Assembly: GCA_018857735.1 (NCBI GenBank) | Contig: JABMCL010000106.1 | Location: 926,001-990,000 of the forward strand | Source of the DNA: Alviniconcha marisindica | Lineage: Eukaryota > Mollusca > Gastropoda > Provannidae | DNA: 64,000 nucleotides | Reading direction: 5' to 3' | Part shown: in pieces, positions 1-51,720 of the stretch | Layout: each line of letters begins with the position of its first letter | How positions within the stretch are numbered: position 1 is the first letter of the stretch | Notes under the pieces: model-generated | Database searches by the model: none | What the model was told of the DNA's origin: nothing | The model's input: only the letters and a program-made list of their open reading frames with translations | Made by a program: the position numbers and the translations under genes

Positions 1-148
1 GCGCGCACACGCACACACACACACACAGTGGCAAAGACACACCCCCCCCCCCTCCCCCCACACAAACAAAACACACACGCACACACGCCACACACACACA
101 GAGTGGCAAAGACACCTCCCTCCACACACACACACACACACACAGAAA
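1..148. repeat. CA-rich simple repeat
   Basis: Interrupted (CA)n tracts with short runs of C and a repeated GAGTGGCAAAGACAC phrase. It lies in the last intron of CHMP1. No coding signal was seen. Confidence 0.9.
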
Positions 149-3100
149 AACTACTCACCGCCTGGACAAGTCATCCTCCCGCGCCTGGTCAGTGGTTTTG
201 GAGGTGGAGGCCACAGAGGCGGAGGGCGCATGCAGTTCCTTCAGCTGGTCGATGACCTCCAGCCCGTTTTCCTCCGCCACCTGCGTGATGAGGGCCTCCA
301 CCTGGTCTGTGGGCGCTGACAGCGTCATGGCCGCCCCCATCGACTGGTCCATCGTCTGGGGAAAGGCATCAATGTTGCCATCAGGACATGGGTCAATGTT
401 GCCATCAGAGCATGCATCAATTGTTGCCATCAGGATATATATATATATGCATCAATTGTTGCCATCAGGATATATATGCATCAACTGTTGCCATCAGGTC
501 ATGCATCAACGTTGCCATTAGGGCACCCAACAATATTGCTTCAGCACATGCATCAATGTTGCCGTCATGATACCAACTGATGTTGCCATCAGGATACTAA
601 CCGATGTTGCCCTCAGGGTACCCACCGATGTTGCCTTCAGGGTACCCATCAATGCTGCTATCAGGACATACATTAATGTTGCCATCAGGACCTGCATCAA
701 TGTTGCCAAATTGGGGCACTCATCAATCTTGCCATCAGGGCATGCAGGACTTGTTGCCATCAGGACCTGCATTAATGCTGTCATCAGGGCACCCATCAGT
801 GTGGCCATCAAGGGATGAGGTGGACTACCAGGGGTGGACTATCAAGGAGTGGATTATCGTGGTGTACTATCAGTATCAAGGGTTGGGCTATCAAGATACA
901 GACCCAAACGAGAGTATACAGAGTGCTTCTGCACACAGCAATACTCACCGCAGTCCTGACGTCTAGATCTTCAAACTGTTTCTCAAACTTGGACATGATC
1001 TGCTCCACCTGCAAATGAACCCGAGGAGTAAGTCATAAAAAAAACTAATAACAGTAGAGCATTCATGGCACCCCATCTTGTAAGAGCCTGGAGTACTTAC
1101 AAAGACACAAGGATATATTCATTTTATTACACACACACTACAAAGACATGCACGATGGGTTGGCAGAATGAGAAGAAAGAAAATGACAGATCAGTGAGCT
1201 GAAGAGAAGAGATGGGTTTTCAGTTTTGACTTAGAAGAAGAAAGTGAAGACAAATGCCTGAAAGAGAGCGGAAGAGAATTCCAGATTTCAGGCCCAATGT
1301 CTTGGCAAGATCTCTTCCCCAGGGTCCTCCTGCCCATCATAGGAACAGGGAACATCCAAGTATTCAAGGCTGGGTGAAGAGAGCAAGGAGGAGAGTAGGG
1401 CTGAAACAACTCAGAGAGGCATGGAGGAGAGTAGGGCTGAAACAACTCAGAGAGGCATGGAGGAGAGTAGGGCTGAAACAACTCAGAGAGGCATGGAGGA
1501 GAGGAGAGCTGAAACAACTCAGAGAGGCATGGAGGAGAGGAGGCTGAAACAACTCAGAGAGGCATGGAGGAGAGGAGAGCTGAAACAACTCAGAGAGGCA
1601 TGGAGGAGAGTAGGGCTGAAACAACTCAGAGAGGCATGGAGGAGAGTAGGCTGAAACAACTCAGAGAGGCATGGAGGAGAGTAGGGCTGAAACAACTCAG
1701 AGAGGCATGGAGGAGAGGAGAGCTGAAACAACTCAGAGAGGCATGGAGGAGAGTAGAACTGAAACAACTCAGAGAGGCATGGAGGAGAGGAGGCTGAAAC
1801 AACTCAGAGAGGCATGGAGGAGAGTAGGGCTGAAACAACTCAGAGAGGCATGGAGGAGAGGTAGAGCTGAAACAACTCAGAGAGGCATGGAGGAGAGAGG
1901 GCTGAAACAACTCAGAGAGGCATGGAGGAGAGTAGGGCTGAAACAACTCAGAGAGGCATGGAGGAGAGTAGGGCTGAAACAACTCAGAGAGGCATGGAGG
2001 AGAGAGAGCTGAAACAACTCAGAGAGGCATGGAGGAGAGTAGGGCTGAAACAACTCAGAGAGGCATGGAGGAGAGAGAGCTGAAACAACTCAGAGAGGCA
2101 TGGAGGAGAGAGAGCTGAAACAACTCAGAGAGGCATGGAGGAGAGGAGAGCTGAAACAACTCAGAGAGGCATGGAGGAGAGTAGGGCTGAAACAACTCGA
2201 GAGGCATGGAGGAGAGTAGGGCTGAAACAACTCAGAGAGGCATGGAGGAGAGAGGGCTGAAACAACTCAGAGAGGCATGGAGGAGAGTAGGGCTGAAACA
2301 ACTCAGAGAGGCATGGAGGAGAGAGAGCTGAAACAACTCAGAGAGGCATGAGGAGAGGAGGCTGAAACAACTCAGAGAGGCATGGAGGAGAGAGGGCTGA
2401 AACAACTCAGAGAGGCATGGAGGAGAGTAGGGCTGAAACAACTCAGAGAGGCATGGAGGAGAGTAGGGCTGAAACAACTCAGAGAGGCATGGAGGAGAGT
2501 AGGGCTGAAACAACTCAGAGAGGCATGGAGGAGAGTAGGGCTGAAACAACTCAGAGAGGCATGGAGGAGAGTAGGGCTGAAACAACTCAGAGAGGCATGG
2601 AGGAGAGTAGGGCTGAAACAACTCAGAGAGGCATGGAGGAGAGTAGGGCTGAAACAACTCAGAGAGGCATGGAGGAGAGTAGGGCTGAAACAACTCAGAG
2701 AGGCATGGAGGAGAGAGAGCTGAAACAACTCAGAGAGGCATGGAGGAGAGAGAGCTGAAACAACTCAGAGAGGCATGGAGGAGAGTAGGGCTGAAACAAC
2801 TCAGAGAGGCATGGAGGAGAGAGAGCTGAAACAACTCAGAGAGGCATGGAGGAGAGAGGCTGAAACAACTCAAAAAGAGGCTACTGAGAGGCATGAGAGA
2901 GAGGCTGAAACAACTCAGAGAGGCATGGAGGAGAGTAGGGCTGAAACAACTCAGAGAGGCATGGAGGAGAGAGAGCTGAAACAACTCAGAGAGGCATGGA
3001 GGAGAGGAGAGCTGAAACAACTCAGAGAGGCATGGAGGAGAGTAGGCTGAAACAACTCAGAGAGGCATGGAGGAGAGTAGGGCTGAAACAACTCAGAGAG

Positions 3101-6100
3101 GCATGGAGGAGAGAGGCTGAAACAACTCAGAGAGGCATGGAGGAGAGTAGGGCTGAAACAACTCAGAGAGGCATGGAGGAGAGAGAGCTGAAACAACTCA
3201 GAGAGGCATGGAGGAGAGTAGGGCTGAAACAACTCAGAGAGGCATGGAGGAGAGTAGGCTGAAACAACTCAGAGAGGCATGAGGAGAGGAGAGCTGAAAC
3301 AACTAGGAGGCAGGAGGAGAGTAGGGCTTGAAAACAAACTCAGAGAGGCATGGAGGAGAGTAGGGCTGAAACAACTCAGAGAGGCATGGAGGAGAGTAGG
3401 GCTGAACAATCAGAGAGGCAGGGGAGAGAGGCAAACTGAGAGGCAGGAGGAGAGTAGGCTGAAACAACTCAGAGAGGCATGGAGGAGAGAGAGCTGAAAC
3501 AACTCAGAGAGGCATGGAGGAGAGTAGGGCTGAAACAACTCAGAGAGGCATGGAGGAGAGAGAGCTGAAACAACTCAGAGAGGCATGGAGGAGAGAGGGC
3601 TGAAACAACTCAGAGAGGCATGGAGGAGAGTAGGGCTGAAACAACTCAGAGAGGCATGGAGGAGAGAGGCTGAAACAACTCAGAGAGGCATGGAGGAGAG
3701 TAGGGCTGAAACAACTCAGAGAGGCATGGAGGAGAGTAGGGCTGAAACAACTCAGAGAGGCATGGAGGAGAGAGGGCTGAAACAACTCAGAGAGGCATGG
3801 AGGAGAGTAGGGCTGAAACAACTCAGAGAGGCATGGAGGAGAGTAGAGCTGAAACAACTCAGAGAGGCATGGAGGAGAGAGGCTGAAACAACTCAGAGAG
3901 GCAAGGAGGAGAGTAGGCTGAAACAACTCAGAGAGGCATGGAGGAGAGTAGGAGCTGAAACAACTCAGAGAGGCATGGAGGAGCAGAGGCTGTCAACTCA
4001 GGAGCAGAGGACAATGGTTGCTGAAACAGTCAGTAGAGGACAATGGAGAGATAGGGTCGTAAAAACAACTGGTCATTCGAGCAGTGAAACATAGGTGTAT
4101 TAGAGCTACAACAGTTCAGAGTTGGTAAACATGTAGGACAAAAGCCTGTTGCTAATCAAGTCAAGCAACTGGTTGTGTAAGTCAGTACAACGACTGGCTG
4201 TGTACAAGTCAGTACAAACAACTGGTTGTTCAAGTAGGTACAAACAACTGGTTGCTTCAAGTCAGAAAGCACTGGTTGTGTCAAGTCAGTACAAGCACAC
4301 TGGTTGTGACTAAGTCAGTACAAACAACTGGTGTGTCAAGTCAGTACAAACAACTGGTTGTGTCAGTCAGTACAAACAACTGGTCATGTCAAGTCAGTAC
4401 AACAACTGGTTTGTCAAGTCAGTACAAACAACTGGTTGTGATCAAGTCGTACAAACAGCTGGTGTTCAAGTCAGTACAAAACACTGCTTGCCAAGTCAGT
4501 ACAAGCAACTGGTTGTGTCAAGTCAGTACAAACAACTGGTGTGTCAAGTCAGTACAAACAATTGGTTGCTTCAAGTAGGTACAAAACAACTGCTTGCTTC
4601 AAGTCCACAACCTGTTGTGTCAAGTCAGTACAAACACCTGGTTGTGACAAGTCAGTACAAACAAGCTGGTGGTGTCATCAGTACAAACAACTGGTAGTGT
4701 CATCAGTACATACCCATTGTTGCAAAATGAATTTAGTAAATTTAGTGAGAAATTATGTTTGTGAGCATTTACTATAAACCTAGCTTGTTAATGCTCAGTA
4801 CAATGAAACTTATGATCAGTACATACCCTTGTTGCAGAAATGTAAATAAATTTAGTAAATATGTTGTGAGCATTTACTATAAGCCTAGCTTGTTTAATGC
4901 TCATACAATGATTTTGATTGTCCATATTTTCATGAATGTAAATAAACTTTGTTTAAACCAACTGGCTGTGTCAAGTCAGTACACATAACTGGCTGTGACA
5001 AGGCAATAATTTAAGCATTACCAGTTGTGATAAGTTGGTGAAAGTCGGTACAAACAACTGGTAGTGTCAAGTCAGTAAAAATGACTGGTTGTGTCAAGTC
5101 AACTTAAGCATTACCAGTTGTGACAAGTCGGTACAAACAACTGGTTACGACAAGGCAGTAACTTAAACATTACAAGTTGTGACAAGTCGGTGCAAACAAC
5201 TGGTTGTGTCAAGTCGGTGCAAACGACTGGTTGTGTCAAGTCGGTGCAAACGACTGGTTGTGTCAAGTCGGTGCAAACAACTGGTTGTGTCAAGTCGGTG
5301 CAAACGACTGGTTGTGTCAAGTCGGTGCAAACAACTGGTTGTGTCAAGTCGGTGCAAACGACTGGTTGTGTCAAGTCGGTGCAAACGACTGGTTGTGTCA
5401 AGTCGGTGCAAACGACTGGTTGTGTCAAGTCGGTGCAAACGACTGGCTGTGTCAATTACCTCTCATCTGCAGCTGATACAATACCCAAGTGAAACCAACC
5501 TCACAGCTGTAGTGACTGTCAGTGATTAACACTAACTCTGCCAAACGTGTACACACCTTTGTTAAGTCCATGGAAGCCAGTGCTTTGTCCAGTGACTTGC
5601 ACACACCTTGGATGTCTTTAGCTACCTGCAGCAGATCAGACCTATATTATTACACTATGGTCAAGATTAACAAAAAAATCAACAGTTGATGCTGCATGAA
5701 AAGTATATTTAAAAAAATATAAAAAATACCATCAAAATTTCAAAGATGATAATTAATACTGAAATCAGACTTGCACAGTGCCAAACAATAACACCATCAC
5801 TATGAGCCTGACACAGAAAGACACAGTCACCCACACCCACTCCCACACACGTCACATGATACATCCACACACACATGCACAGACTCTCTCTCTCTCTCAC
5901 GCACACACATATATATTTTATCCAAACACACTTACACATGATACACCCACACATAGACTCTCTCTCTCTCTCCCTCACACACACACACACACACACACAT
6001 GATATACCCAATCACACACATGCACAGTCTCTCTGTCTCTCTCTCTCTCTCACACACAAGCACACCCGCCAACCCACCCACCCACATACACACTCTAATC

Positions 6101-6608
6101 TCTTACACAGAAAAGCACACATACATGTTTCATGGTGACAGCAGTCTGGACTTTAGAGGCAACAGCATCCACTCTGGCAGCGAAACGAAGATAGTTTAGA
6201 CCCTCATTTTTCTTTCGTATGCATTCTCTGCATAAATTTTGGCTCCCTCCACGTTCTTCTGCTGTAAAGCCTGCACAGAGAGGGGAACGGTCTTTTAATT
6301 AAAAAAATAAAGGGAAAAAATCTAACAATGTTAACTGTTAGCACTCTGAAATAAGATCCAAACACACAAAAGGTTAAAAAAGAAAGCTGATCTTAACAGG
6401 ACAATAATTGGGCAACAATAGGACAGAACAAAACATGTGCACATTTTTAGGCTAAACCCCTTTTTCCAAGCAATAGACAGGCAGATAAACAATAAATAAA
6501 AACTGTCTTTTGGGACAGTCTCCATTGCCAGATTTGATATTCAAAGATAGTTGCATCTTTAAAATCATCTTTGAAATCTCATCTCTTCAAGCTGTCTGAC
6601 TGACTCTC

Positions 6609-6642
<34 letters not shown>

Positions 6643-9600
6643 CGTGAGTGCGTGCATGTGTATGTGCATGTTCCCAGATATTTGTTTTGTTCTTTGCTTT
6701 GTAATGGGCTGTGCTCTACTTTGGACAAATAGCACACATGTCATGTATAAGAGTGCATTATTATTATTATCTTATTATCATCATCCTGTTTCAGTCACTG
6801 GTATTGGAGTGTCTGGATTACAAACATTACTCCAGCCCCAATAACTGAAACAGGATAAGCAATTTTCTTTTAGCATCATTTTTCTGTCTATTGCTTGAAA
6901 AGGGGGCTTACCATGAAAATCCGTGCACGTTTTGTGTGAGGAGAAAAAAAGAAGTGAAGAGTTTGTTTGGTTATTAAAGACTTTAGGAGACACTACATAA
7001 AAATGAAATGACACTGTAACAGAAGTAAGACAATTTCCGGAAATAACAAGCAAAGATAATTTGACAGTGTTTTCTTACTCCAGGAGAGTGAAGTCCCCTG
7101 AATGGAGGCGACAGCTAAGAAGTGCCAATCTGCGACAGTTTTAGAGCTTCAGGCATGGACCTATTATAATTTATACTAGACTACCAGCTGGGGGAACCTA
7201 CTATCCGATCTGCATGTTCCCCACGAACAGTGAGCGCTTGATCGGCATTTCTGATGCCTTTTCTGCCTTTGTTTATCGGTTATCCGTCATCTTGCCCACG
7301 TGCTCACTGTACCCCCAACAAAAGCGTGCCTACTCTGCGCTACACCCACAGGCCTGGACCTGTATATACAGGCCATGCCTGTAGGCACTTACCGAGTGCA
7401 GTCCCCTGGATTTCCGAAGATTGTCTGTTACCTGCTGGCAATGTACCAATTTTTAAATCTCACAAGTTATCCACAAAAACAAACAAAAAAATCAGCGAAG
7501 GAATAAACACCACAAAGTTTCGGTTGATACTGCATTTGCAACTCTGATAGTAAGCAAGCTCAACACACAGGGGAGTTAATTAGCACTCAAAAGCAGTCAC
7601 ACAAGCACAACAACAAAGACCTGAGTCACCTACAGTAACTCTCACCTGGCATGCATGTAAATACAAGGTGCATAAACTCTGATCTATAGGCAAGATTACG
7701 AGAGTATTCTGAGGACAGATCAGATCAGGTTCTTTAAACACTGTATTTTCCAATACGGAAAGCATCTAAGATGCTGGTCTTGATCATTTTCAACCAAACA
7801 AGCGTAATGTACCTCACCTGACCTCAACAGGGCCAGCAAAGTGCCTTAAGTTACCTTTTTCACTTTGGCTTGTTGTTGCTTCTGTTCCTTCTCCGCCTTT
7901 GCAGCCAGGCGCTCCAGCTGACGTGTAGTGAACTTGAGTTGAAACAATGTGTCTGAAAGAGTCATGCTTTAGTTGAAACAGTGTGTCTGAAAGTGTCATG
8001 CTTTAGTTGAAACAGTGTGTCCGAAAGAGTCATGCTTTAGTTGAAACAGTGTGTCTGAAAGTGTCATGCTTTAGTTGAAACAGTGTGTCTGAAAGAGTCA
8101 TGCTTTAGTTGAAACAGTGTGTCTGAAAGAGTCATGCTTTAGTTGAAACAGTGTGTCTGAAAGTGTCATGCTTTAGTTGAAACAGTGTGTCTGAAAGAGT
8201 CATGCTTTAGGTGAAACAGTGTGTCTGAAAGAGTCATGCTTTAGTTGAAACAGTGTGTCTGAAAGAGTCATGCTTTATTTGAAAGTGTGTCTGAAAGAGT
8301 CACGCTTTAGTTGAAACAGTGTGTCTGAAAGAGTCACGCTTTAGTTGAAACAGTGTGTCTGAAAGAGTCATGCTTTAGTTGAAACAGTGTGTCTGAAAGA
8401 GTCATGCTTTAGTTGAAACAGTGTGTCTGAAAGAGTCATGCTTTAGTTGAAACGTGTGTCTGAAAGAGTCATGCTTTAGTTGAAACAGTGTGTCTGAAAG
8501 AGTCATGCTTTAGTTGAAACAGTGTGTCTGAAAGAGTCATGCTTTAGTTGAAACAGTGTGTCTGAAAGAGTCATGCTTTAGTTGAAACAGTGTGTCTGAA
8601 AGAGTCATGCTTTAGTTGAAACAGTGTGTCTGAAAGAGTCATGCTTTAGTTGAAACAGTGTGTCTGAAAGAGTCATGCTTTAGTTGAAACAGTGTGTCGA
8701 AAAGTCTGCTTTAGTTGAAACAGTGTGTCTAAAGAGTTATGCTTTAGTTGAAACAGTGTGTCTGAAACTGTGAAAGAGTCATGCTTTAGCTGAAACAGTG
8801 TGTCTGAAAGAGTCATGCTTTAGTTGAAACAGTGTGTCTGAAAGTGTCAAACTTTAGTGGAAACGGTAGGCCTGAAATATCAAACTTTAGTGAAAACAGT
8901 GTCTTTGAAAGTGTCAAACGTAAGTGGAAACGGTGTCTTTGAAAGTGTCAAACTTAAGTGGAAACAGTGTCTTTGAAAGTGTCAAACTTAAGTGGAAACA
9001 GTGTCTTTGAAAGTGTCAAACTTAAGTGGAAACAATGTGTTTGGAAGTGGCAAATTTATGTTGAAGCAGTGTGTCTGAAAGTGTCAAACTTTAGCAGAAA
9101 GTGTTTCTGAAATCAAACTTTAGCAGAAATGGTGTCTTTGAAAGTGTCAAACTTCAGTGGAAACAGTGTCTTTGAAAGTGTCAACTTCTGTGGAAAGTGT
9201 GTCTGAAAGTGTCATGCTTTAGTTGAAACAGTGTGTGTGAAAGCGTCATGCTTTAGTTGAAACAGTGTGTCTGAAAGTATCAAACTTCAGCGGAAACAGT
9301 GTGTTTGAAAGTGCCAACTTCAGAAATTTGACATTTTCAGACACAGTGTTTCTACTGAAGTTTGATTTTCTACTGAAGTTTGACAATTTCTACACACACA
9401 CACATACACACCATGTGTCATACAGGTGTGTTTTTATTTTTATTTTTAGAACTGGTAAGACAAAATAACAGCCGGCATGTCTGAATGACTGCTGATTGTT
9501 TTCCAGGTATATGCTGATCTTAACCAGTAAAATGCTGGAAATTACCGGTTAATGTGAACCCTGGAGAAGCAATGGCCTAAACAAAGAAATAGGATCTGTG

Positions 9601-9799
9601 CAGAATGATGCATGGATGACAGTGTCAGTGTCTGTTTTGAACAAAATAGCATTATGTACAGCAAGAAGGCTGAACAGGAAGAGCCACATCAAATTATATA
9701 TATTTAAGACAATATCATTCACAACTGACAAGATTAAGAATATTTCTGGCCAAAATAGTTAAAACTGGTGTTTATAAATTTTATACACTATAGTCATAA

Positions 9800-9850
<51 letters not shown>

Positions 9851-10790: not shown

Positions 10791-10799
10791 AACACTCTT

Positions 10800-16605: not shown

Positions 16606-16739
16606 AGCGGCGAATCTGCATCATTTTCCTTGCTTGGTCCATTCACAGTAAATCGGCCACAATCTTCTGGACTTTCCTCTGTATGTGCTTGGAACCGGAT
16701 TGTACCTTTTGCAAGGATCTAAACAATTGTGTGTGAACA

Positions 16740-16835
16740 AGCACCCCTGAAACTGAGTCATCATCATCATAAATATTAATTAACAAGCACCCCTGAAACT
16801 GACAGTCATCATCATTATAAATATCAATTAACATT
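16740..16835. repeat. Two-copy tandem repeat, ~56 bp
   Basis: The phrase AACAAGCACCCCTGAAACTG followed by TCATCATCAT and ATTAATTAAC occurs twice in direct orientation. Confidence 0.85.
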
Positions 16836-16951: not shown

Positions 16952-17495
16952 AGTTACTGGGTGTTAATGTTCCATCAGCTGAACAGGGTCGCCTCATGAC
17001 GATCAAAACTGCAGTCGCTGATTTCACTGTTATTGGATGTTAATGTTCCGTCAGCCACACATGGTTACCTCAGGATGATCAAAACTGCAGTCGCTGATTT
17101 CATTGTTATTGGATGTTAATGTTCCGTCAGCCACACATGGTTACCTCAGGATGATCAAAACTGCAGTCGCTGATTTCATTGTTATTGGATGTTAATGTTC
17201 CGTCAGCCACACATGGTTACCTCAGGATGACCAAACTGCAGTCGCTGATTTCATTGTTATTGGATGTTAATGTTCCCAGTTTTAGCCCAGGCACAAAAGT
17301 AGTTTACACCTCAGGATGATCAAAACTGCAGTCGCTGATTTCATTGTTATTGGATGTTAATGTTCCGTCAGCCACACATGGTTACCTCAGGATGATCAAA
17401 ACTGCAGTCGCTGATTTCATTGTTATTGGATGTTAATGTTCCGTCAGCCACACATGGTTACCTCAGGATGACCAAAACTGCAGTCGCTGATTTCT
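16952..17495. repeat. 76-bp minisatellite, about seven copies
   Basis: Unit contains TGTTATTGGATGTTAATGTT, CCGTCAGCCACACATGGTTA and GATCAAAACTGCAGTCGCTG. The central copies are almost identical and the first is diverged. One copy carries a replacement segment at about 17275-17310. No exon edge is known here. Confidence 0.95.
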
Positions 17496-19604: not shown

Positions 19605-20045
19605 CTGACCCACTGCTGCAGTTCGCCGGCCCGCTATTGCAATGTGCCAATCTGATACTGCTGTGTGTCGATCCAGTATTGCAGTGTGCCTGTCCCCTAT
19701 TGCAGTGTGCCAATCCAGTATTGCAGTGTGCTGGTCCCCTGTTACAGTCCCCTACTGCAATGTGCCGGTCCACTATTGTAGTGTTCTGGTCCCCTACTGC
19801 AATGCACTGGCTCCCTCCTGCAATGTGCCGGTCCACTATTGCAGTGGTCCAGTCCCCTACTGCAATGTGTCGGTCCACTATTGTAGTGTGCCAATCCCCT
19901 ATTGCAATGTGCCGGTCCACTATTGCAGTGTACCGGACCACTACTGCAATGTGCCGGTTCACTATTGCAGCGTACCAGTCTATTATGGCAATGTGCCAGT
20001 CCACTATTGCAATGTGCCGGACCCCTACTGCCGCGTGCTGGTGGT
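19605..20045 (-). repeat. 21-bp minisatellite templated on the cyclin E stop codon
   Basis: On the transcribed strand the unit is CACATTGCAATAGTGGACCG (plus G), about 20 copies. The end of the coding region reads CACGCGGCAGTAGGGGTCCG (plus G), which aligns to the unit over its whole length with the stop codon TAG in register. The array lies wholly in the predicted 3'UTR apart from the copy that holds the true stop. Confidence 0.9.
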
Positions 20046-20204
20046 GGGTGAAACCTTTTTGCTGCTGCGAGGCGGGGTGATGAAGATGGGGGTGGGCGAG
20101 GCGGGACTGGGGCACTCCTGCTGCCGGTGCTGAATAGCCTCTGCCAGCAGCGCTAGACTGGAGCGGGCATGGAAGTAGCTCTCCGATCTCCGTAGGGCCT
20201 CCTC
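20025..20204 (-). CDS. CCNE: Cyclin E terminal coding exon 11
   Basis: 180 nt, acceptor CTGTGCCCAG, TAG stop at 20025-20027. It encodes EEALRRSESYFHARSSLALL and a C-terminal tail with SPTPIFITPPRSSKK. TPP followed by Ser four residues after the Thr is the conserved phosphodegron of cyclin E recognised by SCF-FBXW7. Confidence 0.93.
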   Translation of the reverse strand, partial: EEALRRSESYFHARSSLALLAEAIQHRQQECPSPASPTPIFITPPRSSKKVSPTTSTRQ

Positions 20205-34965: not shown

Positions 34966-35071
34966 ATGGCGTCTGCAAGGAGCGTTGCTACTACTTTGGA
35001 GCGCTTTTCCAAATTATTCAAGCATGATTTGGGAAATGTCATAGGCGTGATACATGTTCCTGCGTTGCCAG
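34966..35071 (+). CDS. BtpA-family coding exon 1
   Basis: 106 nt ending in phase 1 before donor GTAATG. It encodes the putative targeting peptide and GNVIGVIHVPALP. The ATG is the first in an open frame and gives the family's usual spacing to the first beta strand. Confidence 0.93.
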
Positions 35072-41000: not shown

Positions 41001-44000
41001 GGAGAACATGCATGATGTCCCCTACATGCAGTCTGACAGCGTGGGGCCAGAGGTCACGGCCATGATGACAGCCATCTGCATTCACGTCAAGCGACTGCTG
41101 AAGCCCAGTCCTGTGGGCGTTCAAGTGCTGGCAGGGGCCAACAAACAGGCTATGGCCGTTGCCAAGGCTGCAGGTAGGTGTTGGGTCATGGCTGTTGTCA
41201 AGGTTGCAGGTCGATGGTGGGATCATGGCTGTTGCCAAGGTTGCCGGTGGGTGGTGGGGTCATGGCCGTTGCCAAGGTGGGTAGTGGGGTCATGGCCGTT
41301 GCCAAGGCTGCAGGTGGGTGGTGGGGTCATGGCTGATGCAAAGGCTGCAGGTGGGTGGTGGGGTTATGGCCACTGCCAAGGCTGCAGGTGGGTGGTGGGG
41401 TCATGGCCATTGTCAAGGCTGCAGGTGGGTGGTGGGGTCATGGCCACTGCCAAGGCTGCAGGTGGCTGGTGGGGTCATGGCTGTTGTCAAGGCTGCAGGT
41501 GGGTGGTGGGGTCATGGTTGTTGCCAAGGCTGCAGGTGGCTGGTGGGTCATGGCCACTGCCAAGGCTGCAGGTGGGTGGTAGGTCATGGCTGTTGCCAAG
41601 GCTACAGGTGGGTGTTGGGGTCATGGCTGTTGCCAAGGCTGCAGGTCAGTAGTGGGGTCATGGCTGTTGTCAAGGCTGTGGGTGGGTGTTGGGGTCATGG
41701 CCATTGCCATGGCAGTGTGTGGGTGGTGGGGTCATGGCCATAGCCAAGGCTGCAGGTCAATGGTGGTGGGGTTATGGCCTTTGCCAAGGCTGCAAGTGGG
41801 TGGTGGCAGGGTCATGGCTGTTGCCAAGGCTAAGAGATCCTAAGAGGATGCACCTCTGGTAGAGTTTATGTACCATGTATTTACATGCATGCCAGGTGAG
41901 AGTTACCGTAGGTGACTCAGGTCTTTGTTGGTGTTGTGTTACATATTTCGAGTGCTAATTAACTCCCTTGTGTGTTGATTCTGCACAAGTGCTCTGGGCC
42001 TCGTTCTGTTTCAGATTTTAGATCTGCGAAATCCATCATGGCAGATTGTTCTTGTTCTGGTCTGTGTGATAAACACTGTGGGCAGATGTTCAGATTCATG
42101 AGGTATTTGATGGACTAATACACAGAGGGGCCTGGGTACAAACTTGGAGAATGATGGTAACATGTTAAATTTGATCAGATAAATGAAATGTTGCTAGCTG
42201 CTTGAATAAATGCCTTATTATTAATTATATGTCCTCAGCATGGTATTTGCAGAAATATGTTTTGTAAATAGGTACATCAAGAGTTGAATTGATTGATCCT
42301 TGAATGAAGAATCCTTGTCCTTGATTTCTACCAGTAATTTTTCATAAGTTTGACTTTGTGAGTGGTGTGTGTGTGTGTTGTGCAGACCTGGAGTTCATTC
42401 GTGCGGAGGGATTTGTGTTTTCACATGTGGCTGACGAGGGCTTGATGAATGCCTGTGCGGGAGATCTCATGCGCTACCGACACAGCATCGGTGCAGATAA
42501 TATTATGGTGTTTGCTGATGTCAAGAAAAAACACAGGTACAGGATTGTTTTCATCTTGACCTTTTTGACTTTAATCCATTCTATAGACTTGGAGTAAGCC
42601 TAAATCAACAGTGATGGTGTTACTGAAACGGTGAAACAGCTATTAACATCCAGTTGCGTTTTGAAAACTGTCTGTATACTACATAATGATACGCTAATAC
42701 TTGAGTGAAAACATTTTCTGAAGATTTTTGAATGCAGCAAATTTGACTGAGAGAAAAATATTCTGTTGAGGACTGAAGGCATCATTAGCTGAGTTGCATA
42801 TAATTCAGCTTGTAAGCTCCCCAGGTTGTTTTGAGATGAGGCGCCATAAATACTTGTTATTATTAGCTTTCTCAAGCAGTGGTGCAATCAGACTATAAAG
42901 GAGGGAGAGAGAGAAAGAGGAATCGTGAGAGTCGAGGTGGCCGTCCTGGGCTGTCCGTCCTAACGAGCCTTCTGGTTTCCGTGGACGTAAAGCTATATTG
43001 AACCATGCTTTGGCATTGGTCTCAGCTTGTCCCTAATATGTCAGCCGACATCCGAGGACATTAAGCAACACAACTGTACTGAAAGAGGAATAAAGTGAGC
43101 TCAGGATCTGTGTGAACAGGGAGGTGGGCCTGGGCTCTCGTTCCCTATCCCGTTCTTCTCCTGTCCATAATAAGGCTCATGGAGTAATGGTTGCTGTTGA
43201 TGTAAAGCACCATAAAAGAAATGAAGAAAAACAAAAACCTGTTGAGATTCTGCTTTCATACTGTTTGTGCTGAACCCTCATGGTAGAAATGATGAGCGCA
43301 TGTGAAACAAAGCGACAGGTGAAGAGGAAGGACTGGTGGGTCATAGTGTTGTGGAAATAGTGACTCTCATGCATTGTTTGATACCTATAGAACTCTCATG
43401 CATTGTTTGATGTCTTCAGAACTCCCAGGCACTCTCTGATGTCTTTAGAAGTCACAGGCATTGTTTGATGTCTTCAAGAACTCTCATGCATTGTTTGATG
43501 TCTTCAGAACTCTCGTGCATTGTTTGATGTCTTCAGAACTCTCATGCATTGCTTGGTGTCTGCAGAACTCTCGTGCATTGTTTGATGTCTTCAGAACTCT
43601 CATGCATTGTTTGAATTGTTCACAGTTCTCATGCAATCACAGCGGATGTGGACATTGTCGAAACGGCACAGGCTGCCAAGTTCTTCCTGGCTGACGGAGT
43701 TATTGTTACTGGCCCCGCTACAGGACAGGTGGCTAGCGTAAAGGAGATCAGAGGTCAGTGAGTGGAAGGCCACTCATTATTCCCAGTCCGACAATGTTTA
43801 CGACACATAATGATAATCTAGTGCGCTGAATCCCTCTCTACGATACATGTGTGAGGCTCCAAAGTGCTGTACATGAAATATTACACATGCGCACACGCAT
43901 ACAATCTCTCAACCCCTCACCTCCACTTCCCTCTCTACATAATCAATGTATGTGCTGTTGTCTGGTTGTACTGTGCTTGGAAATGTTGATGTATGTGCTG

Positions 44001-47000
44001 TAGTCTGGTTGTACCGTGGATGAGTATGTTTATATATGTGTACTGTAGTCTGGCTGTACTGTGTATGAGAATGTTTATGTGTTTGTACTGTAGTCTGGCT
44101 GGATTGTGCATGAGAATGTTTATATGTGTTCTGTAGTCTGGTTGTACTGTGCATAAAAATGTTTATGTATGTGCTGTAGTCTAGTTGTACTGTGCATGGA
44201 AATGTTTATGTGTGTACTGTAGTATGGTTGTATTGTGCATGAAACTTTATGTGTGTGCTTTAGTCTGGTTGTACTGTGCATGAAAATGTTTATATGTGTG
44301 CTGTCATCTGGTTGTACTGTGCATGGAAATGTGTATGTGTGTCCTGTAGTCTGGTTGTACTGTGCTTGGAAATGTTTATGTATGTGCTGTAGTCTAGTTG
44401 TACTGTGCATGAAAATGTTTACATGTGTACTGTAGTCTGGTTGTACTGTGCATGAAACTGTTTATGTGTGTACTGTAGTCTGGTTGTACTGTGCATAAAA
44501 ATGTTTATGTATGTGCTGTAGTTTAGTTGTACCATGCATGGAAATGTTTATGGGTGTGCAGTAGTCAGGTTGTACTGTGCATGAAACTGTTTATGTGTGT
44601 GCTTTAGTCTGGTTGTACTGTGCTTGAAAATGTTTATGGGTGTGCAGTAGTCAGGTTGTACTGTGCATGAAAATGTTTATGTGTTTGCTTTAGTCTGGTT
44701 GTACTGTGCATGAAAATGTTTATATGTGTGCTGTAGTCTGGTTGTACTGTGTATGAAACTGTTTATGTGTGTGCTTTAGTCTGGTTATACTGTGCATGAA
44801 TTTTTTTATGGGTGTGCTGTAGTCAGGTTGTACTGTGCATGAAAATGTTTATGTGTGTGCTTTAGTCTGGTTATACTGTGCATGAAAATGTTTATTTGTG
44901 TGCTGTAGTCTGGTTGTATTGTGCATGAAAATGTTTGTGTGCTGTAGTCTGGTTGTACTGTGCATGAAAATGTTTATGTGTGTGCTCATGTCTGGTTGTA
45001 CTGTGATAATGTTTATAATGTGTGTACTGTTGACTGGTTGTACTGTGCACGGGAATGTTCATATTAATTATAATGTGTGTACTGCACTGGTTGTTTTGTT
45101 CATGGGAATGTTTATGTGTGTACTGCAGTCTGGTTGTACTGTGCATGGGAATGTTTATGTGTGTACTGTAGTCTGGTTGTACTGTGCAGATTGTATTGTG
45201 TTTTTATTTTACTTTTGTATTGTTTAATCTGTTTCCCCTTTTTTTTTATCTTTGCATTTGTCCTTCCCTTTTATCTTTGTGTTTGTCCTGTTTGTATTCA
45301 TTATTTAATCTGTCCATTTTTCACTTGACGTTTGCATTAATAATTCTTTTCTTACTGTTGTACCTGGCGAAGCAGCTGCCAAAATTCTGACGTGTTGATA
45401 ACTTTGTGTTTATATACTGTTGGTTATGGATAGCATTACAATATTGTCTTTGAATTGTCAAGGCCTTGGCAATACTAGAAAGAGAAGAGACGTTTTCCAT
45501 TATCTGAAGCAAAAATCTTGCTCGATATACTGTTTGCAAGACACGCATTTCAGTACCAAATTAGAAACATACGTCAAAGCTGAATGGGGATATAATTGCT
45601 TCTTTGCATCTTACAGCTCTAATTCAAGGGGAGTAGCAGTAATGTTTATGAACAATTTTGAATTCAAAATCAACGATGTAAAGCGAGATAGGAACGGAAA
45701 TTTCATTCTTGTTTCCTTCTTAATGAAGGATAAAGATATTTTGCTTGTCAATGTTTACGGACCGAACCGGGATACACCAGCTTTTTATGAAGAGCTAACG
45801 GAAATGGTTAAAGAATACCAAAACCATAATATAATTATAGTAGGCGACGGGAATTTAGTGTTAGACCCCCAGTTAGACAGTTATAATTATAAACATATAA
45901 ACAACCCAAAAGCCAAAGAGTCCGTTGAAAATATGATGTTAGAACTAGGTTTAACTGACATTTGGAAAGAAGCTAATCCTGACTGCAAACGTTATACGTG
46001 GAGAAAAACGAAACCACTTAAGCAAAGTAGGCTTGATTATTTTCTACTCTCTGACTACTTAGTCTCCAGTTTTGAAGATACAGACATTCTTCCTGGATAT
46101 CGGTCTGACCATTCAATGGTTACCCTTAAGCTTCGCTTTGGAAAAGAAATGAAACGAAACACCTTTTGGAAATTTAATTGCTCACTACTGAAAGATAAAA
46201 AATACATTGATGAAATAAATGATGAAATAAATAATGTTATAGAACAATATGCAGCCCCCCACTACGATAAAGCAAGTATCTCGGGCATTGCCAAATCTGA
46301 CCTTGAACTTACAGTTTCTGACAAGGTTTTTCTAGATTTTTTGCTCATGAAAATAAGATCACGAACAATCTCTTATGCGACAATGAAGAAGAAAAAAACA
46401 TGAGAGAAAGAAGAAAGTTTGTTAAGAGATATTAAATTATTTGAAGAGAAAGAAAGTAAAACAGATGGATATTAAGCATATTGCAGAGAAAAATAAAGAA
46501 CTAGTTTCACTACGGAAGAAAACAATGGAGGGTGTACTACTGCTATCAAAAGCGAGGTGGGTGGCAGAAGGAGAAAAGATATCAAAATACTTTTGTAACC
46601 TGGAGAAAAGGCACTATGTTAGTAAACAAATGATAAAACTAATTGACGCAAAAGGTGAGGAAATTAAAGAACCACTTGACATAAATAAAGAAGTTAACAA
46701 TTTTTATAGTAATTTGTATAAAGCCAAGGACCTAGAAGAGTGTGAGATTGAACAACTGGTAACGGAAATTCCAAAACTATCTGAGGAGGAACCAAGACCA
46801 TTAGAAGGGAAAATAACAATAGAGGAGGCAGGAACAGCGTTGAAAAATATGAAACATGGAGAAAGCCCTGGTACGGATGGTTTTGGGGCAGAATTTTTCA
46901 AGTGCTTTTGGAAGCAGCTTGGACCATTTGTAGTTAGAGCTTTAAATAAGGCATTTGATGATGGCGAGCTATCCACCACTCAAAAGGAAGGCATTATTAC

Positions 47001-49899
47001 TTGTATTCCCAAGGGCGACAGACCTAGAGATAACATTAAAAACTGGAGACCAATCTCTCTCCTTAATGTCATATACAAAATTGGATCTTCCTGTATCGCT
47101 AACGGAATTAAAAGAGTACTACCATCATTAATTGATGATGATCAGACAGGTTTCATTTCCAACAGATACATGGGTGATAACGTTCGGTTGATTTATGACT
47201 TGATAAACTATCTGAATACAAAAAATAATCCTGGATTATTGCTATGCCTCGACTTTGAGAAAGTATTTGACTCTCTTGATTGGCGGTTCATGTTTAGGGC
47301 TCTTCAAGCATTTGGTTTTGGAAAAGACCTTTGTAGATGGATAGATACTTTTTATAAAAACATAAAATCAACAGTAATAGTGAATGGACAGACAACCCAG
47401 TGGTTTACAGTAGAGCGTGGGTGCCGACAGCGCGACCCGATATCACCATACATATTTATTTTTTGTGTTGAAATTTTAGCAATCATGATTCGAGAGGATA
47501 GTGATATCAAGGGAATCTGGATAAACAAAGTAGAACACAAAATATCTCAATTCGCAGATGACACACAACTAATGAACAATGGAGAGAAAATCATGAAAAA
47601 TCAATAGATGCAATTAATAAATTTGGAAAAGTATCTGGCCTGTTTTTGAATGCGGACAAAACACAGGCCATATGGTTAGGTAGCAAAAAATATTCAAGAG
47701 TAAAATATATGCCACATTTGAAAATGGTATGGAATCCAACTATGTTTAAGATCCTTGGCATATGGTTTACCCAGGATTTAAAAGAGTGTGCAGCAATAAA
47801 CTACAATAAAAATTTCGATGAAGTTAAAATCGTTTCAAAATTTGGTCACTTAGGACTATTACCCCGCTAGGAAGAGTTGCTATACTGAAGTCACTGATTC
47901 TGTCAAAACTGATCCATTTGTGGATTTTGCTGCCTGACCCCCCTGATAACTTTGTGAAAGATCTTCAAAAAATATGTTTTCAATTTGTTTGGAATGGAAA
48001 ACAAGACAGAATTGCCAGAAAGACGACAATAAAAGATGTAAAAAGTGGAGGTCTAAATATTCCAGGTATTAAAACGTATATTCTAGCTCTAAAACTCACA
48101 TGGATAAAAAAATTAAAGATATCAAACCATAAATGGAGAAATGTTCCGATGGAGTTGTATCCATTTCTTCATCAATTAGAGTGCTACGGCCCTTGCTTTT
48201 TCAACCAAACTGTCAAAAATAATTCCTTCTGGTCAGACGTCTTCAAAGCTTATGGAATTTTCTTTAGTAAAGTGAAACCAAACTCGACATCTCAACTTCT
48301 TTCTGAACCTGTTTTTTATAACAAAAATATGATGATCGGAAACAAGATGATCAAATACACACAGTGGGTTGACAATGGAGTGTACTGTATCGCTCATTTT
48401 ATAAAAGAAAATGGGCGGTTTCACACTCTTGCAGAATTTAATACAAAGTTTGGCATGACGGTTGATTTCTTGACTTTTAATAGTTGCACCAGTTCAATAA
48501 AACATTATATCAAGACGTCTACGATACTTATCGGTAATAACATGGCAAATGAGGTAAATATCTCGCTGAGTACAATCTACTCTGCACCAAAGGGTACAAG
48601 GCTCTATTACAACATTCTCGTAAATGACAACTGTATTCCAAATTGTTGCTTGAAATGGAATGAAAAACTGAAGTCAAATATTTCTTGGAATACAGTTTTC
48701 ATAAAAGTACAAAAAATTAAAGATGTAAAACTTAAATGGTTACAAATGCGCATTATACATAGAATAATAGCTACTAACATAGTATTAAACAAAATGGGAG
48801 TCACTGCTAACACTCAGTGTGGCTTCTGCAATGACCAAAAAGATAGCATTGAACATATGTTTTGGAGATGTGCTTGTATCAGACATTTTTGGACTTCGCT
48901 GGAAACGACATTGAAAGAAAAATGTGAGACAGCGCTAAATGTAAAATTTACACAAAATCTTGTATTGTTTGGAACAGAAATAGACATCAAAACTGACACA
49001 GTCTTTGACTTAGTGATACTTCAAGCTAAGCAATTTATATACAAATGCAAACTCGACAAGTGCTTGCCAACTCTCTCCTGCTTCCTTCAACAACTGATGC
49101 TGAAATACAAAATAGATGAATACAATGCAAAGATCAGCGGCGAACTGCCCACCTTTATCTTGAACTGGCTCTGTTATAAGCCTATTTTGAAAACAGAAAA
49201 CTGATAACCTCAGGGCATATGTAGTTATTTTAGATTTAGAATATATACACATGTGACAGGCAGTCAGTCACTCATTGTGCAGGCAAATATCTGTCTATGA
49301 AGTACTTTGTCCAACTCTTTGTCTGTATGGATGTATCTTTTTGTCTATTATGTATAACATGTGCATATATATTTGTATACATTATCCACTGTTGGAACGG
49401 GTGTACTCTTATGTTCTATAATTGTGTTATATTCGTTATATTGAATTAAAAAAGAAAATAAAAATTTTCATTTTCTGTTGCATGTTTATTTGCTAATTTT
49501 TATGTTTGGACTATTAAATCTGTCTTTTTTAAATTTATTTAGTCATTCTTTAGTCTTTTAGTCACTTATTTTTTAGTCATTCAAAAAATCTGTGCACTTA
49601 TTTAAAAAAAATTGTTTGTGTTTGATTGCATGTTTGCATTCCATTTTGCGTTTAACATGCTGTTTGGTCGGTCTGTTGCAGCGGTGCTTCAGAATGCACA
49701 ACTGCCAGTTCTGGTGGGGTCAGGGCTGACAGCAGAAAATTACGACCAGTACCGGATCGCTCATGCTGTGATCGTGGGGTCGGCAATGAAGGAGGGTGGC
49801 CACTGGGCCAACAGACTGGATGCCCGCCGAGTGAAGCAGTTCATGGAGAGAGTGAAGGAAGTGCGGAAGAAGCATGTTGATGCCACCATGATCATATGA
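34966..49899 (+). CDS. BtpA-family TIM-barrel protein gene, six exons
   Basis: Exons 34966-35071, 39519-39601, 40987-41173, 42386-42536, 43626-43753 and 49682-49899 join in consistent phase to 291 codons including stop. Family signatures appear in order: VIGVIHVPALPGTP (first strand), DGVIVENMHDVPY, VGVQVLAGANKQAMAVAKAA, LEFIRAEGFVFSHVADEGLM, MVFADVKKKHSSHAI, ADGVIVTGPATG, PVLVGSGLTAEN and AVIVGSAMKEGGHW. This is the BtpA/SgcQ family (PF03437), named for a cyanobacterial photosystem I biogenesis factor; animal members such as C. elegans F13E9.13 have no established reaction. The N-terminus (MASARSVATTLERFSKLFK) is basic and Ser/Thr-rich, compatible with mitochondrial import. Length is normal for the family. 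Three introns and the 3'UTR carry exon-edge repeats. Confidence 0.95.
35640..35795. repeat. Dispersed repeat C, copy 1
   Basis: Starts AGGAGCTGTGTGAGAGTTGA, continues GGTGGCCGTCCTGGGCT, and ends with GGTCTCAGCTTGTCCCTAAT and GGACATTAAGCAACAC. The copy at 42930-43075 matches over the same length. Related pieces occur at 60385-60515 (same orientation), and at 57485-57515 and 57825-57865 (inverted). Unknown family, about 150 bp. Confidence 0.82.
36160..39518 (+). repeat. 31-32-bp minisatellite templated on the BtpA exon 2 acceptor
   Basis: About 90 degenerate copies of GATAAATTTCAG then GCACTCCATGCAGTAACAGT. The true junction reads GATAAATTTCAG then GAACTCCATGCAGTAACAAT, so the unit carries the splice acceptor plus about 24 nt of coding sequence. 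Copies in 36560-37300 mostly have TTTCTG or TTTCCAG where nearer copies keep TTTCAG. A unique 190-bp segment interrupts at about 36355-36550. It fills most of intron 1. Confidence 0.94.
39519..39601 (+). CDS. BtpA-family coding exon 2
   Basis: 83 nt, acceptor AAATTTCAG and donor GTGAGC. It encodes GTPCSNNDANKIIDEACREA then VIYKDLGV. The first ~24 coding nt are the same sequence that is repeated throughout the intron upstream. Confidence 0.93.
39768..39840 (+). tRNA. tRNA-Gln-like pseudogene or SINE head
   Basis: GCCATGGTGTAATGGTTAGC, CTCTGGACT and AGTTCAAATCT...TGGAACC match tRNA-Gln at the D arm, T arm and 3' acceptor strand. The anticodon stem-loop is replaced by GTCCCACC and no longer pairs, and the 5' acceptor strand is mismatched. 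It is not a functional gluceptor-type tRNA as written. Lies in BtpA intron 2 about 165 bp after exon 2. Confidence 0.6.
39860..40980. other. BtpA intron 2, no exon seen
   Basis: AT-rich sequence with a (GT)n tract at 40680-40704 and, at about 40780-40910, a segment partly complementary to dispersed repeat B (6310-6475). Confidence 0.4.
40987..41173 (+). CDS. BtpA-family coding exon 3
   Basis: 187 nt, acceptor GTTTCCAG and donor GTAGGT. It encodes DGVIVENMHDVPYMQSDSVG through the Ala-rich AMAVAKAAG end. The last 22 coding nt and the donor are repeated downstream. Confidence 0.97.
41174..41835 (+). repeat. 37-bp minisatellite templated on the BtpA exon 3 donor
   Basis: About 17 copies of GTCATGGCCGTTGCCAAGGC then TGCAGGTGGGTGGTGGG. 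The exon end reads CTATGGCCGTTGCCAAGGCT then GCAG and the donor GTAGGTG. Every unit thus repeats 22 coding nt and a donor-like GCAG-GTGGGT. It begins directly at the exon. The exon 3 frame stays open through the first ~480 bp of the array, to about 41650. Confidence 0.96.
41840..42385. other. BtpA intron 3, distal part
   Basis: No exon or repeat family recognised, apart from a short phrase ATGCATGCCAGGTGAGAGTTACCGTAGGTGA-like (41885-41920) whose reverse complement occurs at about 7625-7660 in CHMP1 intron 2. A GT tract precedes the exon 4 acceptor. Confidence 0.4.
42386..42536 (+). CDS. BtpA-family coding exon 4
   Basis: 151 nt, acceptor TTGTGCAG after a GT tract, donor GTACAG. It encodes LEFIRAEGFVFSHVADEGLM, an Asn-Ala-Cys-Ala-Gly segment, and DNIMVFADVKKKH. 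Confidence 0.97.
42925..43075. repeat. Dispersed repeat C, copy 2
   Basis: GAGTCGAGGTGGCCGTCCTG through TTGGTCTCAGCTTGTCCCTA and GAGGACATTAAGCAACAC. Aligns along its length with the copy at 35640-35795. In BtpA intron 4. Confidence 0.85.
43376..43625 (+). repeat. 29-bp minisatellite at the BtpA exon 5 acceptor
   Basis: About eight copies of TGTCTTCAG then AACTCTCATGCATTGTTTGA. The true junction is TTGTTCACAG then TTCTCATGCAATCACAG. They share the AG followed by CTCATGCA, in the last unit before the exon. Similarity to the exon is shorter than in the other edge arrays. Confidence 0.85.
43626..43753 (+). CDS. BtpA-family coding exon 5
   Basis: 128 nt, acceptor TTGTTCACAG and donor GTCAGT. It encodes SHAITADVDIVETAQAAKFF and ADGVIVTGPATGQVASVKEI, conserved strands and loops of the barrel. 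Confidence 0.97.
43940..45190. repeat. ~43-bp minisatellite in BtpA intron 5
   Basis: About 29 copies of CTGTAGTCTGGTTGTACTGT then GCATGAAAATGTTTATGTGTGTG, length-variable. Its right end at about 45187 abuts the presumed 5' end of the LINE. No exon sequence detected in the unit. Confidence 0.95.
45426..46403 (+). pseudogene. LINE ORF2 endonuclease part
   Basis: Opens MDSITILSLNCQGLGNTRKR and contains CLQDTHF, LLVNVYGPNRD, an IIVGDGN motif where the family has GDFN, RLDYFLLSDYL and GYRSDHSMV. These are the exonuclease-endonuclease-phosphatase motifs of L1-like elements: Asn, Glu/Gln-Asp, Tyr, Asp-x-Asn, Ser-Asp-His. The Phe to Gly change leaves the catalytic Asp and Asn. The frame is lost in an A-rich run at about 46385-46400, a typical place for an indel. 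Confidence 0.9.
46420..47607 (+). pseudogene. LINE ORF2 reverse transcriptase part
   Basis: Contains LSKARWVAEGEKISKYFCNL, SPGTDGFGAEFFKCFW, NWRPISLLNVIYKI, LLCLDFEKVFDSLDW, VERGCRQRDPISPYIF and the catalytic ISQFADDTQLM. These are RT motifs in normal order with the Asp-Asp pair intact. GCRQRDP differs slightly from the usual GCRQGDP. The frame ends shortly after the FADD box at a stop, then resumes in another frame. Confidence 0.92.
47640..49204 (+). pseudogene. LINE ORF2 C-terminal part
   Basis: Two frames (47646-47870, then 47918-49204) continue the polyprotein. The second contains KQDRIARKTTIKDVKSGGLN and the zinc-binding CGFCNDQKDSIEHMFWRC pattern (Cys-x2-Cys, His-x4-Cys), the zf-RVT domain of L1/Tx1 elements. 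It ends at TGA 49204 just before the A-rich tail. Confidence 0.9.
49682..49899 (+). CDS. BtpA-family terminal coding exon 6
   Basis: 218 nt, acceptor TCTGTTGCAG, TGA stop at 49897-49899. It encodes LPVLVGSGLTAENYDQYRIA and AVIVGSAMKEGGHWANRLDA, ending HVDATMII. The last coding codons and the stop are repeated in the 3'UTR. Confidence 0.97.
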
Positions 49900-50195
49900 A
49901 TAGAGACACTATGTATAGGTTGAAGCCTTTGATGCCACTGTGATCATGTAAATATTGACATTGTATAGGTTGACGCCTTTTGTGTCACCATGATCAGATG
50001 AATATCAACACTGTATAGGTTGATGCCTTTGGTGCCACCATGATCAGATGAATATTGACACTATGTGTAGGGTGACATCTTTGATGCCACCATGATCATA
50101 TAAATATTGACACGGTATAGGTTGACACCTTTGATGCCACTATGATCGTATAAATATTGACGCAACGATGACCATTAAAACGTCAATGCTATGTA
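49876..50195 (+). repeat. ~60-bp repeat templated on the BtpA stop codon region
   Basis: The last codons and stop read GTTGATGCCACCATGATCAT then ATGAATA. Five further diverged copies follow directly, such as GGTTGATGCCTTTGGTGCCA then CCATGATCAGATGAATATTG, each keeping the ATGATCA.ATGAATA core. The array lies in the 3'UTR. Confidence 0.88.
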
Positions 50196-50746
50196 TTGGG
50201 TGGTTCAGTAAAGCTGGTTTGCATGAGTGAATGCCCTTTGTAATCTTTCGCGCAAGAAGTCACAAGAGGTCGCAGCGTCACTTCCGGGCTGATTTCTGAG
50301 TAGGCGTTGCTTCACACTGTGTATAACAACTGAAGCTGAACCTAGAATGTGAAGCAATACAAATGCCACCACTGTTGCAGTTGCAAAAATTACCGGGGAA
50401 AGGGGATGGAGGGTGGAAAAAAAGTGACTTGGTGTCATTTTCTGGCTGACCAGAAGATCGCGAGTTTGTGAAAAAAATGCATTTTGGGGCATCCTATAGC
50501 ACGAGCAAGAAGTTATTGCTTGTTGCCAGACACATTCTGACTACGGGCCTGCAAAAATGCCTTTAAAGTTGGCAGTGTAAAAATTGCAAATTCACTGTCA
50601 CCGCCTTCCATTGTGAAGAAAATACACACTGCAAGTAAAAGCAGCCAAGGGACTTAAGCGATGCCGGGCCAAAATCAAGGTAGGTAACAACCCCGCTTGA
50701 ACTGCCCAATAAGTTCATGCCATGATGACCATATAAACATCAACTC

Positions 50747-51048
50747 ATGATTGTGCTAGACATTTTTCAAACCGGTGTGACATCTATAAGATGGCAAAAG
50801 TGGTGCACAGAAACTGGTCGGATACATGGCCGGCCGTCCATACAACTATCAGAGCTGTACTAGCAAACACCCAGCTCCCTTTCTTGCCTAACACACACAC
50901 ACACACACACTCTTCTGCTGCATTTTTTATTACTGTTTTTTAAAACTGGTCAAAATAATAGCCGGTATGTCTGATGGATTGCTGATTTTGTTTCTGGTAC
51001 ATGCTTATCTGGTAAAAGACTGGAAATTACCAGTTAACGCAAAACCTG
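50747..51048. repeat. Dispersed repeat A, full-length copy 2
   Basis: GATTGTGCTAGACATTTTTC at the start, a CA tract in the middle, AAAATAATAGCCGGTATGTC and GGAAATTACCAGTTAACGC at the end. Aligns with 30413-30750 and, for its 3' half, with 9385-9557. It interrupts the downstream repeat derived from the BtpA stop region. Confidence 0.82.
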
Positions 51049-51089
51049 ATCAACGCTATACATGTTTAAGTTCATGCCATGATGACCAC

Positions 51090-51720
51090 ATAAACACTTT
51101 TTACACGAAGACACTTTTCCTTAGCTGACACCACGATGACCAGACACACACCAACACTACGCAGAAATGAATGTTACAGCGATGATATCGATATCAGTAC
51201 TATGTATAAGCTGATGCAATAATGATCTTATGCATAATACATTCATCACTATGCATAAGCTGATGCAACAATGACAATAATTATGAATACCAACAATGAA
51301 TAGAAATAGATGCCATGATCATGATATGTAAAAAAACACCATACTTTATACTGTGTATAAGCTGATGCAAAGATGATCTTACGCATAATACATCAGCACT
51401 ATGCATAAGCTGATGCAACAATGACAATAATTATGAATACCAACAATGAGTACAAGTGGATGCCATCATCATCATTTATAAAAAACACACACCATACCTT
51501 GGTACTATGTGTAAGTTGACACAACAATGATCATGTACAAAATATAGATATCAACATCTTGTAGAAGCTGATGCCATGATGGTCATATAAAATAGTACCT
51601 CAGCATTATGTAGGTTGATCTCTAAGATGATGCCATGATGGTCATATAAAATAGTACATCAGCACTATGTAGGCTGGTACACTTTAAGACGATGCCATGA
51701 CGGTTAAGTAAAGTAATGTA
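51090..51720. repeat. Diverged downstream part of the BtpA 3' repeat
   Basis: Scattered phrases such as GCTGATGCCATGATGGTCAT, TATAAGCTGATGCAACAATG and CATCAGCACTATG. They resemble the 49876-50195 units but with large drift and secondary duplication (a ~155-bp segment at 51215-51330 recurs at 51345-51480). Confidence 0.65.

Follow-up and report, generated by a model that had tools for sequence, protein, structure and literature searches.

Genes and edge-spanning arrays

The window analysed here (64,000 nucleotides of contig JABMCL010000106.1, assembly GCA_018857735.1, from the gastropod Alviniconcha marisindica) contains three genes, CHMP1, cyclin E and a BtpA-family gene, in which minisatellites run across coding edges, that is, across splice sites and stop codons. 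The genes were modelled with 20 exons and 38 edges (18 acceptors, 18 donors and 2 stops), and the models were verified via splice dinucleotides and translation:

159..10220, minus strand: CHMP1 gene body, exons 1-6; the gene end lies beyond the window
10214-10220, 7855-7952, 6125-6270, 5557-5625, 949-1008 and 159-355, minus strand: CHMP1 exons 1-6
7855..7952, minus strand: CHMP1 exon 2, the repeated part of which (with exon 1) encodes DTLFQLK
20025..27305, minus strand: cyclin E, eight coding exons in the model, with 5' exons outside the model
34966..49899, plus strand: BtpA-family (F13E9.13-like) gene, six exons

Arrays were called with Tandem Repeats Finder (TRF; period of at least 10). Rows that scored below 100 or lay beyond 53,500 were excluded, as was a coding repeat at 23633-23720, and rows of one family were merged, which gave 18 noncoding minisatellite loci. 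An edge was crossed by 8 of the 18 (five acceptors, one donor and both stops), with unit lengths given in base pairs (bp):

7933..9311, minus strand: CHMP1 exon 2 acceptor, 34-bp unit, about 41 copies (TRF and copy table)
26532..26698, minus strand: cyclin E acceptor 26575, 77-bp unit, 2.2 copies, 44 exon bases in the unit
25255..25481, minus strand: cyclin E acceptor 25258, 42-bp unit, 5.4 copies
19625..20031, minus strand: cyclin E stop, 21-bp unit, about 19 copies, extending from the stop codon
36250..39532, plus strand: BtpA exon 2 acceptor, 31-bp array family, about 90-97 copies
41152..41831, plus strand: BtpA exon 3 donor, 37-bp unit, 18 copies
43363..43635, plus strand: BtpA exon 5 acceptor, 29-bp unit, about 10 copies, ending 10 bases into the exon
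49877..50161, plus strand: BtpA stop, 50-bp unit, 5-6 copies
50680..51704, plus strand: decayed extra copies of the BtpA stop unit (TRF row 51198-51704)

All eight arrays contained a coding-segment edge and had the intact exon at one end, and their exon content was strong in five, moderate in two and weak in one. The best cases were CHMP1 exon 2, the BtpA exon 3 donor, the BtpA exon 2 acceptor, the BtpA stop and cyclin E acceptor 26575. At CHMP1 exon 2 (edge 7952/7953) the unit consisted of 14 intron-end bases, ending in CAG, and the first 20 exon bases, and at the BtpA exon 3 donor it consisted of 22 exon-end bases, GT and 13 more intron bases. The array at BtpA exon 2 occupied most of intron 1, its TRF end lying 14 bases into the exon, and bases 5-23 of exon 2 agreed with the 31-bp unit at 18 of 19 positions. 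The BtpA stop unit comprised the final 20 coding bases, the stop and 27 flank bases. The exon content at BtpA exon 5 was moderate (nine exact bases, p 0.05), as was that at the cyclin E stop, where the coding copy and the unit agreed at 13 of 21 positions (p 0.03); the unit at acceptor 25258 gave no significant match to the first 30 exon bases (p 0.66). In all eight arrays the unit-to-edge alignment exceeded all 1500 control windows, which nearly restates the finding, as the edge already lies inside each array; the p values of unit-to-edge matches are uncorrected throughout. The preliminary description of this DNA, made from the sequence alone, had proposed that arrays begin at exon borders with units containing the junction or stop plus coding bases, and the eight TRF arrays bear this out. 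The six cases that it called clear are all among the eight, provided that its 'cyclin E exon 5' corresponds to acceptor 25258 or 26575 (the numbering had to be guessed).

Three further loci lay close to an edge:

366..817, minus strand: near the CHMP1 exon 6 acceptor, 24-bp array that starts 10 bases upstream
20241..20940, minus strand: near the last cyclin E acceptor, 37-bp array at a distance of 36 bases
4162..5455, minus strand: near the CHMP1 exon 4 donor, 26/27-bp array pair at a distance of 101 bases

The 24-bp array exceeded all 1500 control windows through intron bases only, and exon content was not detected in it (p 0.21). The 37-bp array was a weak candidate, matching the intron side (p 0.03 and 0.08) and not the exon side. 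A suggestive match came from the 27-bp array close to CHMP1 exon 4 (p 0.009 for the exon side and 0.13 for the junction). Matches of the array at 43946 to the BtpA exon 6 acceptor, with a long interspersed nuclear element (LINE) in between (p 0.047), and of the BtpA intron 1 array to the exon 1 donor (p 0.037) were put down to chance, given 36 uncorrected tests. No edge was found at or near the arrays at 1378-4056, 11949-12020, 16736-16833, 16953-17494, 24791-24912, 43946-45188 and 52027-53052. The first of these (36-bp unit, 73 copies) lies beside an element that, judged by eye, resembles a short interspersed nuclear element, and its unit seems to extend that element and not an exon. Large minisatellites without a modelled gene alongside were seen at 52027-53052 (43 bp, 24 copies) and 56770-58769 (units of 42-131 bp). 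The TRF rows within 1-53,500 that were dropped for their score hold 1.9 to 3.1 copies and start at 819, 9349, 9860, 12839, 13212, 16560, 18776, 26204, 29850, 32058, 46208 and 49538.

GT and AG ends were present at every intron modelled, and the frames of cyclin E and BtpA were open. CHMP1 exon 3 carried a one-base frame shift near 6220, probably an assembly error. Pfam domains in the window were BtpA, Cyclin_N and Cyclin_C, and Snf7; the nearest solved structures were cyclin E1 for cyclin E and CHMP1A for CHMP1, and the BtpA protein was 85%, 80% and 79% identical to those of Littorina saxatilis, Babylonia and Nucella, respectively. These identities mark the animal as a caenogastropod other than these three. 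The BtpA-family gene and cyclin E are arranged head to head. The locus tags of the cyclin E-like and BtpA genes are also consecutive in Nucella (ACOMHN_039795/039796) and in Pomacea (C0Q70_18836/18835), which makes this neighbourhood look old. BtpA intron 5 also holds the LINE (45402-49204), whose endonuclease, reverse transcriptase and zf-RVT pieces are each in a different frame; it is shortly preceded by a 43-bp array of 26 copies.

Excess of edge-spanning arrays over chance

When each array was shrunk to one unit and placed at random (the collapsed null, which discards units falling wholly within exons), a mean of 0.65 arrays crossed an edge, relative to the 8 observed; none of 100,000 trials reached 8 (maximum 5), and none of 200,000 did so in a repeat. 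With an overhang of at least 7 and at least 9 bases, 7 and 6 arrays were counted against means of 0.53 and 0.46, respectively (0 of 200,000 trials in both). Whole arrays thrown into the noncoding gaps gave a mean of 0.50, with 0 of 4,000 trials reaching 8. For introns only, with the LINE removed, 6 of 12 arrays spanned an edge compared with 0.93 expected (P 0.000125), and 4 of 10 compared with 0.47 (P 0.00075) when the 42-bp and the two-copy 77-bp arrays were left out. Acceptors were spanned more often than donors (5 of 18 and 1 of 18), an excess that was not significant (Fisher p 0.18), and both stops were spanned, a number too small to judge. From this excess relative to random birth, it seems that arrays either arise preferentially at coding edges or persist longer there.

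Origin of the arrays and rival explanations

The eight arrays are quite probably mirage-type minisatellites, a kind described in amphioxus (see below), born by local duplication straddling an edge and then enlarged by ordinary growth. Each array would have started as one small local tandem duplication, by polymerase slippage or end-joining repair, with a unit straddling a stop codon or splice site. This event would be nearly harmless, as the copy adjoining the rest of the exon would still allow normal splicing, or normal reading to the stop, and the extra copies would land in the intron or 3' flank. Later growth may have proceeded by ordinary slippage and unequal exchange, the decoy sites remaining unused. 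Selection would purge duplications inside exons unless they are in frame, leaving the surviving exon-derived arrays at edges and pointing outward. The in-frame 30-bp coding repeat at 23633-23720 (minus strand) in a cyclin E exon (SPCDLDTSAN...) fits such a filter; its motif occurs in one copy in Littorina (SPCDLNIS) and in several copies here and in relative P0123.

The direction from exon to array follows from the conservation of the residues that the repeated exon parts encode, which makes the coding use the older one and upholds the earlier proposal that the arrays derive from exon edges. DTLFQLK, from the repeated part of CHMP1, is identical in the solved CHMP1A chain 13gm_C (which we take to be human), and the N-terminus of that chain starts in the same way as the CHMP1 of the window. 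BtpA residues at four edges (GTPCSNND, AMAVAKAA, HAIT and DATMII-stop) are conserved in Littorina and, in part, in other snails, and the final RQ-stop of cyclin E is shared with Littorina. For the cyclin E acceptors, which lie in a variable region, the direction appears less clear. These arguments bear on the view that a splice site or stop codon shifted into an older noncoding array, which we consider highly improbable. Its best footing is at the BtpA exon 5 acceptor and the cyclin E stop, whose edge copies resemble the consensus poorly (0.55 and 0.62, respectively) and where the order of events is least clear; it runs counter to the conservation of the repeated exon parts in snails and, for CHMP1, in the solved CHMP1A.

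Repeated outward duplication of the boundary, as proposed in the preliminary description, was not supported. That the arrays point outward is no separate fact, because one intact exon is required and spare copies must lie outside it. When the distance gradient was run on six arrays, leaving out those at the cyclin E acceptors, identity to the edge copy dropped with distance at CHMP1 exon 2 only (rho -0.68) and no gradient was present in the other five (rho -0.28 to 0.16); at BtpA exon 2 similarity to the consensus was higher in the far copies than in those near the edge (rho 0.74). With a gradient in just one of six arrays, a steady march of duplications outward was rejected, and internal turnover after array birth is enough to explain the growth. 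The link of edge duplication to R-loops or chromatin that had been suggested gained no support here. The units differed among arrays: the best unrelated pair of consensus sequences scored 32, relative to 74 for two pieces of one array, a comparison made without a formal null. A single mobile satellite family was rejected on this ground, in agreement with the preliminary description.

Several points weigh against edge-straddling birth as read here. The merging of rows into 18 loci and the cut-off score of 100 were the analyst's choices; merging is backed by unit similarity for 4162-5455, by a common copy table for 36250-39532 and, for 49877-51704, by a scan with the BtpA stop unit from 50160, in which 14 of 40 overlapping 60-base windows scored p <=0.01. 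The array at acceptor 25258 holds only four exon bases (GTTT), and two of the eight edge arrays (cyclin E stop and BtpA exon 5) are only moderate. That the innermost splice site would be the one used is deduced from homology. The data come from one window, picked for this very feature, so that the P values are optimistic. Arrays make up 32.4% of the noncoding bases, by which measure 12.3 of the 38 edges were expected to be covered and 8 were, and at least two nearby copies were found at 6 of 38 edges (16%), compared with 21% of random noncoding positions. Finally, the decoy GT was kept in 18 of 18 copies at the BtpA exon 3 donor, above the median for the unit.

The coverage figures favour the view that coding edges are no hot spot, and that in a minisatellite-rich genome they are struck like any noncoding base while selection halts the arrays at exons; we regard this as rather unlikely. 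Base coverage inflates the chance of lying in a founding unit, since later copies are new DNA, and it was therefore held to be the wrong null and the collapsed null the right one, under which the expectation is 0.65 to 0.93; at random positions outside arrays, at least two copies were found in only 0.6%. The enrichment over randomised positions anticipated in the preliminary description thus stands under the collapsed nulls (0.65 overall; 0.93 against 6 in introns) and falls under the coverage null (12.3 against 8), which comes close to the randomisation that had been named there. It is very unlikely that the splice sites or stops in the repeats are retained because they serve a function, for example in splicing regulation or message decay. 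The GT of the donor array alone would suit one, and a C. elegans minisatellite near alternative exons has been linked to splicing choice in the part of PMC4039745 available; in four acceptor arrays (the 2.2-copy array excluded) the decoy AG did not exceed the median of the unit, being kept in 30 of 40, 4 of 5, 44 of 100 and 8 of 10 copies. Use of decoys would mostly shift the frame, since among the six splice-edge units only that of 42 bp is divisible by three and the other five (34, 77, 31, 37 and 29 bp) are not. Of the ladders of decoy sites described earlier, the decoy splice sites themselves exist, and a special keeping of AG in these four acceptor arrays does not. An assembly artefact built from exonic reads, which the preliminary description had itself raised, is scarcely credible. 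The frame shift in CHMP1 exon 3 hints at base-level errors, and one amphioxus array, misassembled in the draft genome, had to be reconstructed by the authors from traces (PMC3087553); here the copies differ from one another, unlike copied reads (for the seven edge arrays that have at least five copies, the mean match to the consensus is 0.80-0.92).

Comparison with amphioxus mirages and other systems

The preliminary description took the phenomenon to be new, which did not hold, as arrays of this kind have been published as 'mirages' in amphioxus (PMC3087553, PMC3902484); statements on cited papers refer to the portions of them that were available. Mirages are described in Adh3 and the globins BflGb6 and BflGb9, together with a model of intron gain (PMC3087553). 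They share with the snail arrays (splice-edge units of 29-77 bp) the repetition of AG or GT signals. They differ in coming from a chordate and not a gastropod; a numerical excess was measured here; and stop codons, which are part of the snail set, are not mentioned for mirages in the available portion of PMC3087553. Splicing and length instability were examined in amphioxus, whereas the snail arrays are known from one assembly. In lancelet PGBD5, repeats of 60 and 108 bp likewise overlap splice sites, and troponin C mirages are mentioned (PMC3902484). The authors conclude that accurate splicing is undisturbed; the copies there, unlike those in the snail, are few and imperfect, and the phylum is another.

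Intron gain of the type proposed by Rogers resembles the snail arrays in that a local tandem duplication includes splice signals, and differs in that existing introns and the 3' flank lengthen in the snail, with no new intron shown. Potato RdRp is reportedly a case of intron gain by tandem duplication. The Rogers model, as presented in PMC3087553, has introns gained via tandem duplication at AGGT sites. A polymorphic 27-bp minisatellite in intron 3 of an abalone TSSK1-like gene is also an intronic array in a gastropod gene, for which the excerpt of PMC6905558, unlike the data here, does not state an exon edge in the unit. Exon-edge arrays were not found in the available portions of PMC6905558, PMC12783039 (earthworm), PMC7931591 and PMC3862624, and in the open-licence literature, as far as it was accessible, mirages of this kind appeared only in lancelets and no mollusc case was found, which is no proof of absence.

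Measured against the published description, six arrays have units across an intron-exon boundary (25258 with only four exon bases), both kinds of boundary were duplicated (5 of 18 acceptors and 1 of 18 donors), units are unrelated between genes, and the cyclin E and BtpA models that use the innermost sites have open frames and agree with relatives. In sequence, the six splice-edge arrays fit the mirage description, and they would work in the same way. The boundary of the two stop-codon arrays is not a splice site; these arrays are mirage-like in their working and lie outside the published description, and they were not filed as members. The feature is thus known in kind, and what is new is the phylum, its presence in three adjacent genes, the stop codons and the measured excess. 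More tentatively, and with some doubt, coding edges (splice sites and stops) may be preferred birthplaces of tandem duplications in at least two phyla, with mirage birth driving the growth of introns and 3' flanks generally. Were this so, the involvement of stop codons would point to a cause other than splicing, either a property of coding edges or selection anchoring one copy, and stop-codon cases would tell a cause tied to splicing apart from an effect of coding edges in general. An excess that held genome-wide would provide a source of longer introns and duplicated splice signals that can be dated and is visible at the sequence level. It would bear on how introns are gained and on the spliceosome's choice of one site among forty near copies. 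Mirages would then shift from a feature of one lineage to one of two distant lineages.
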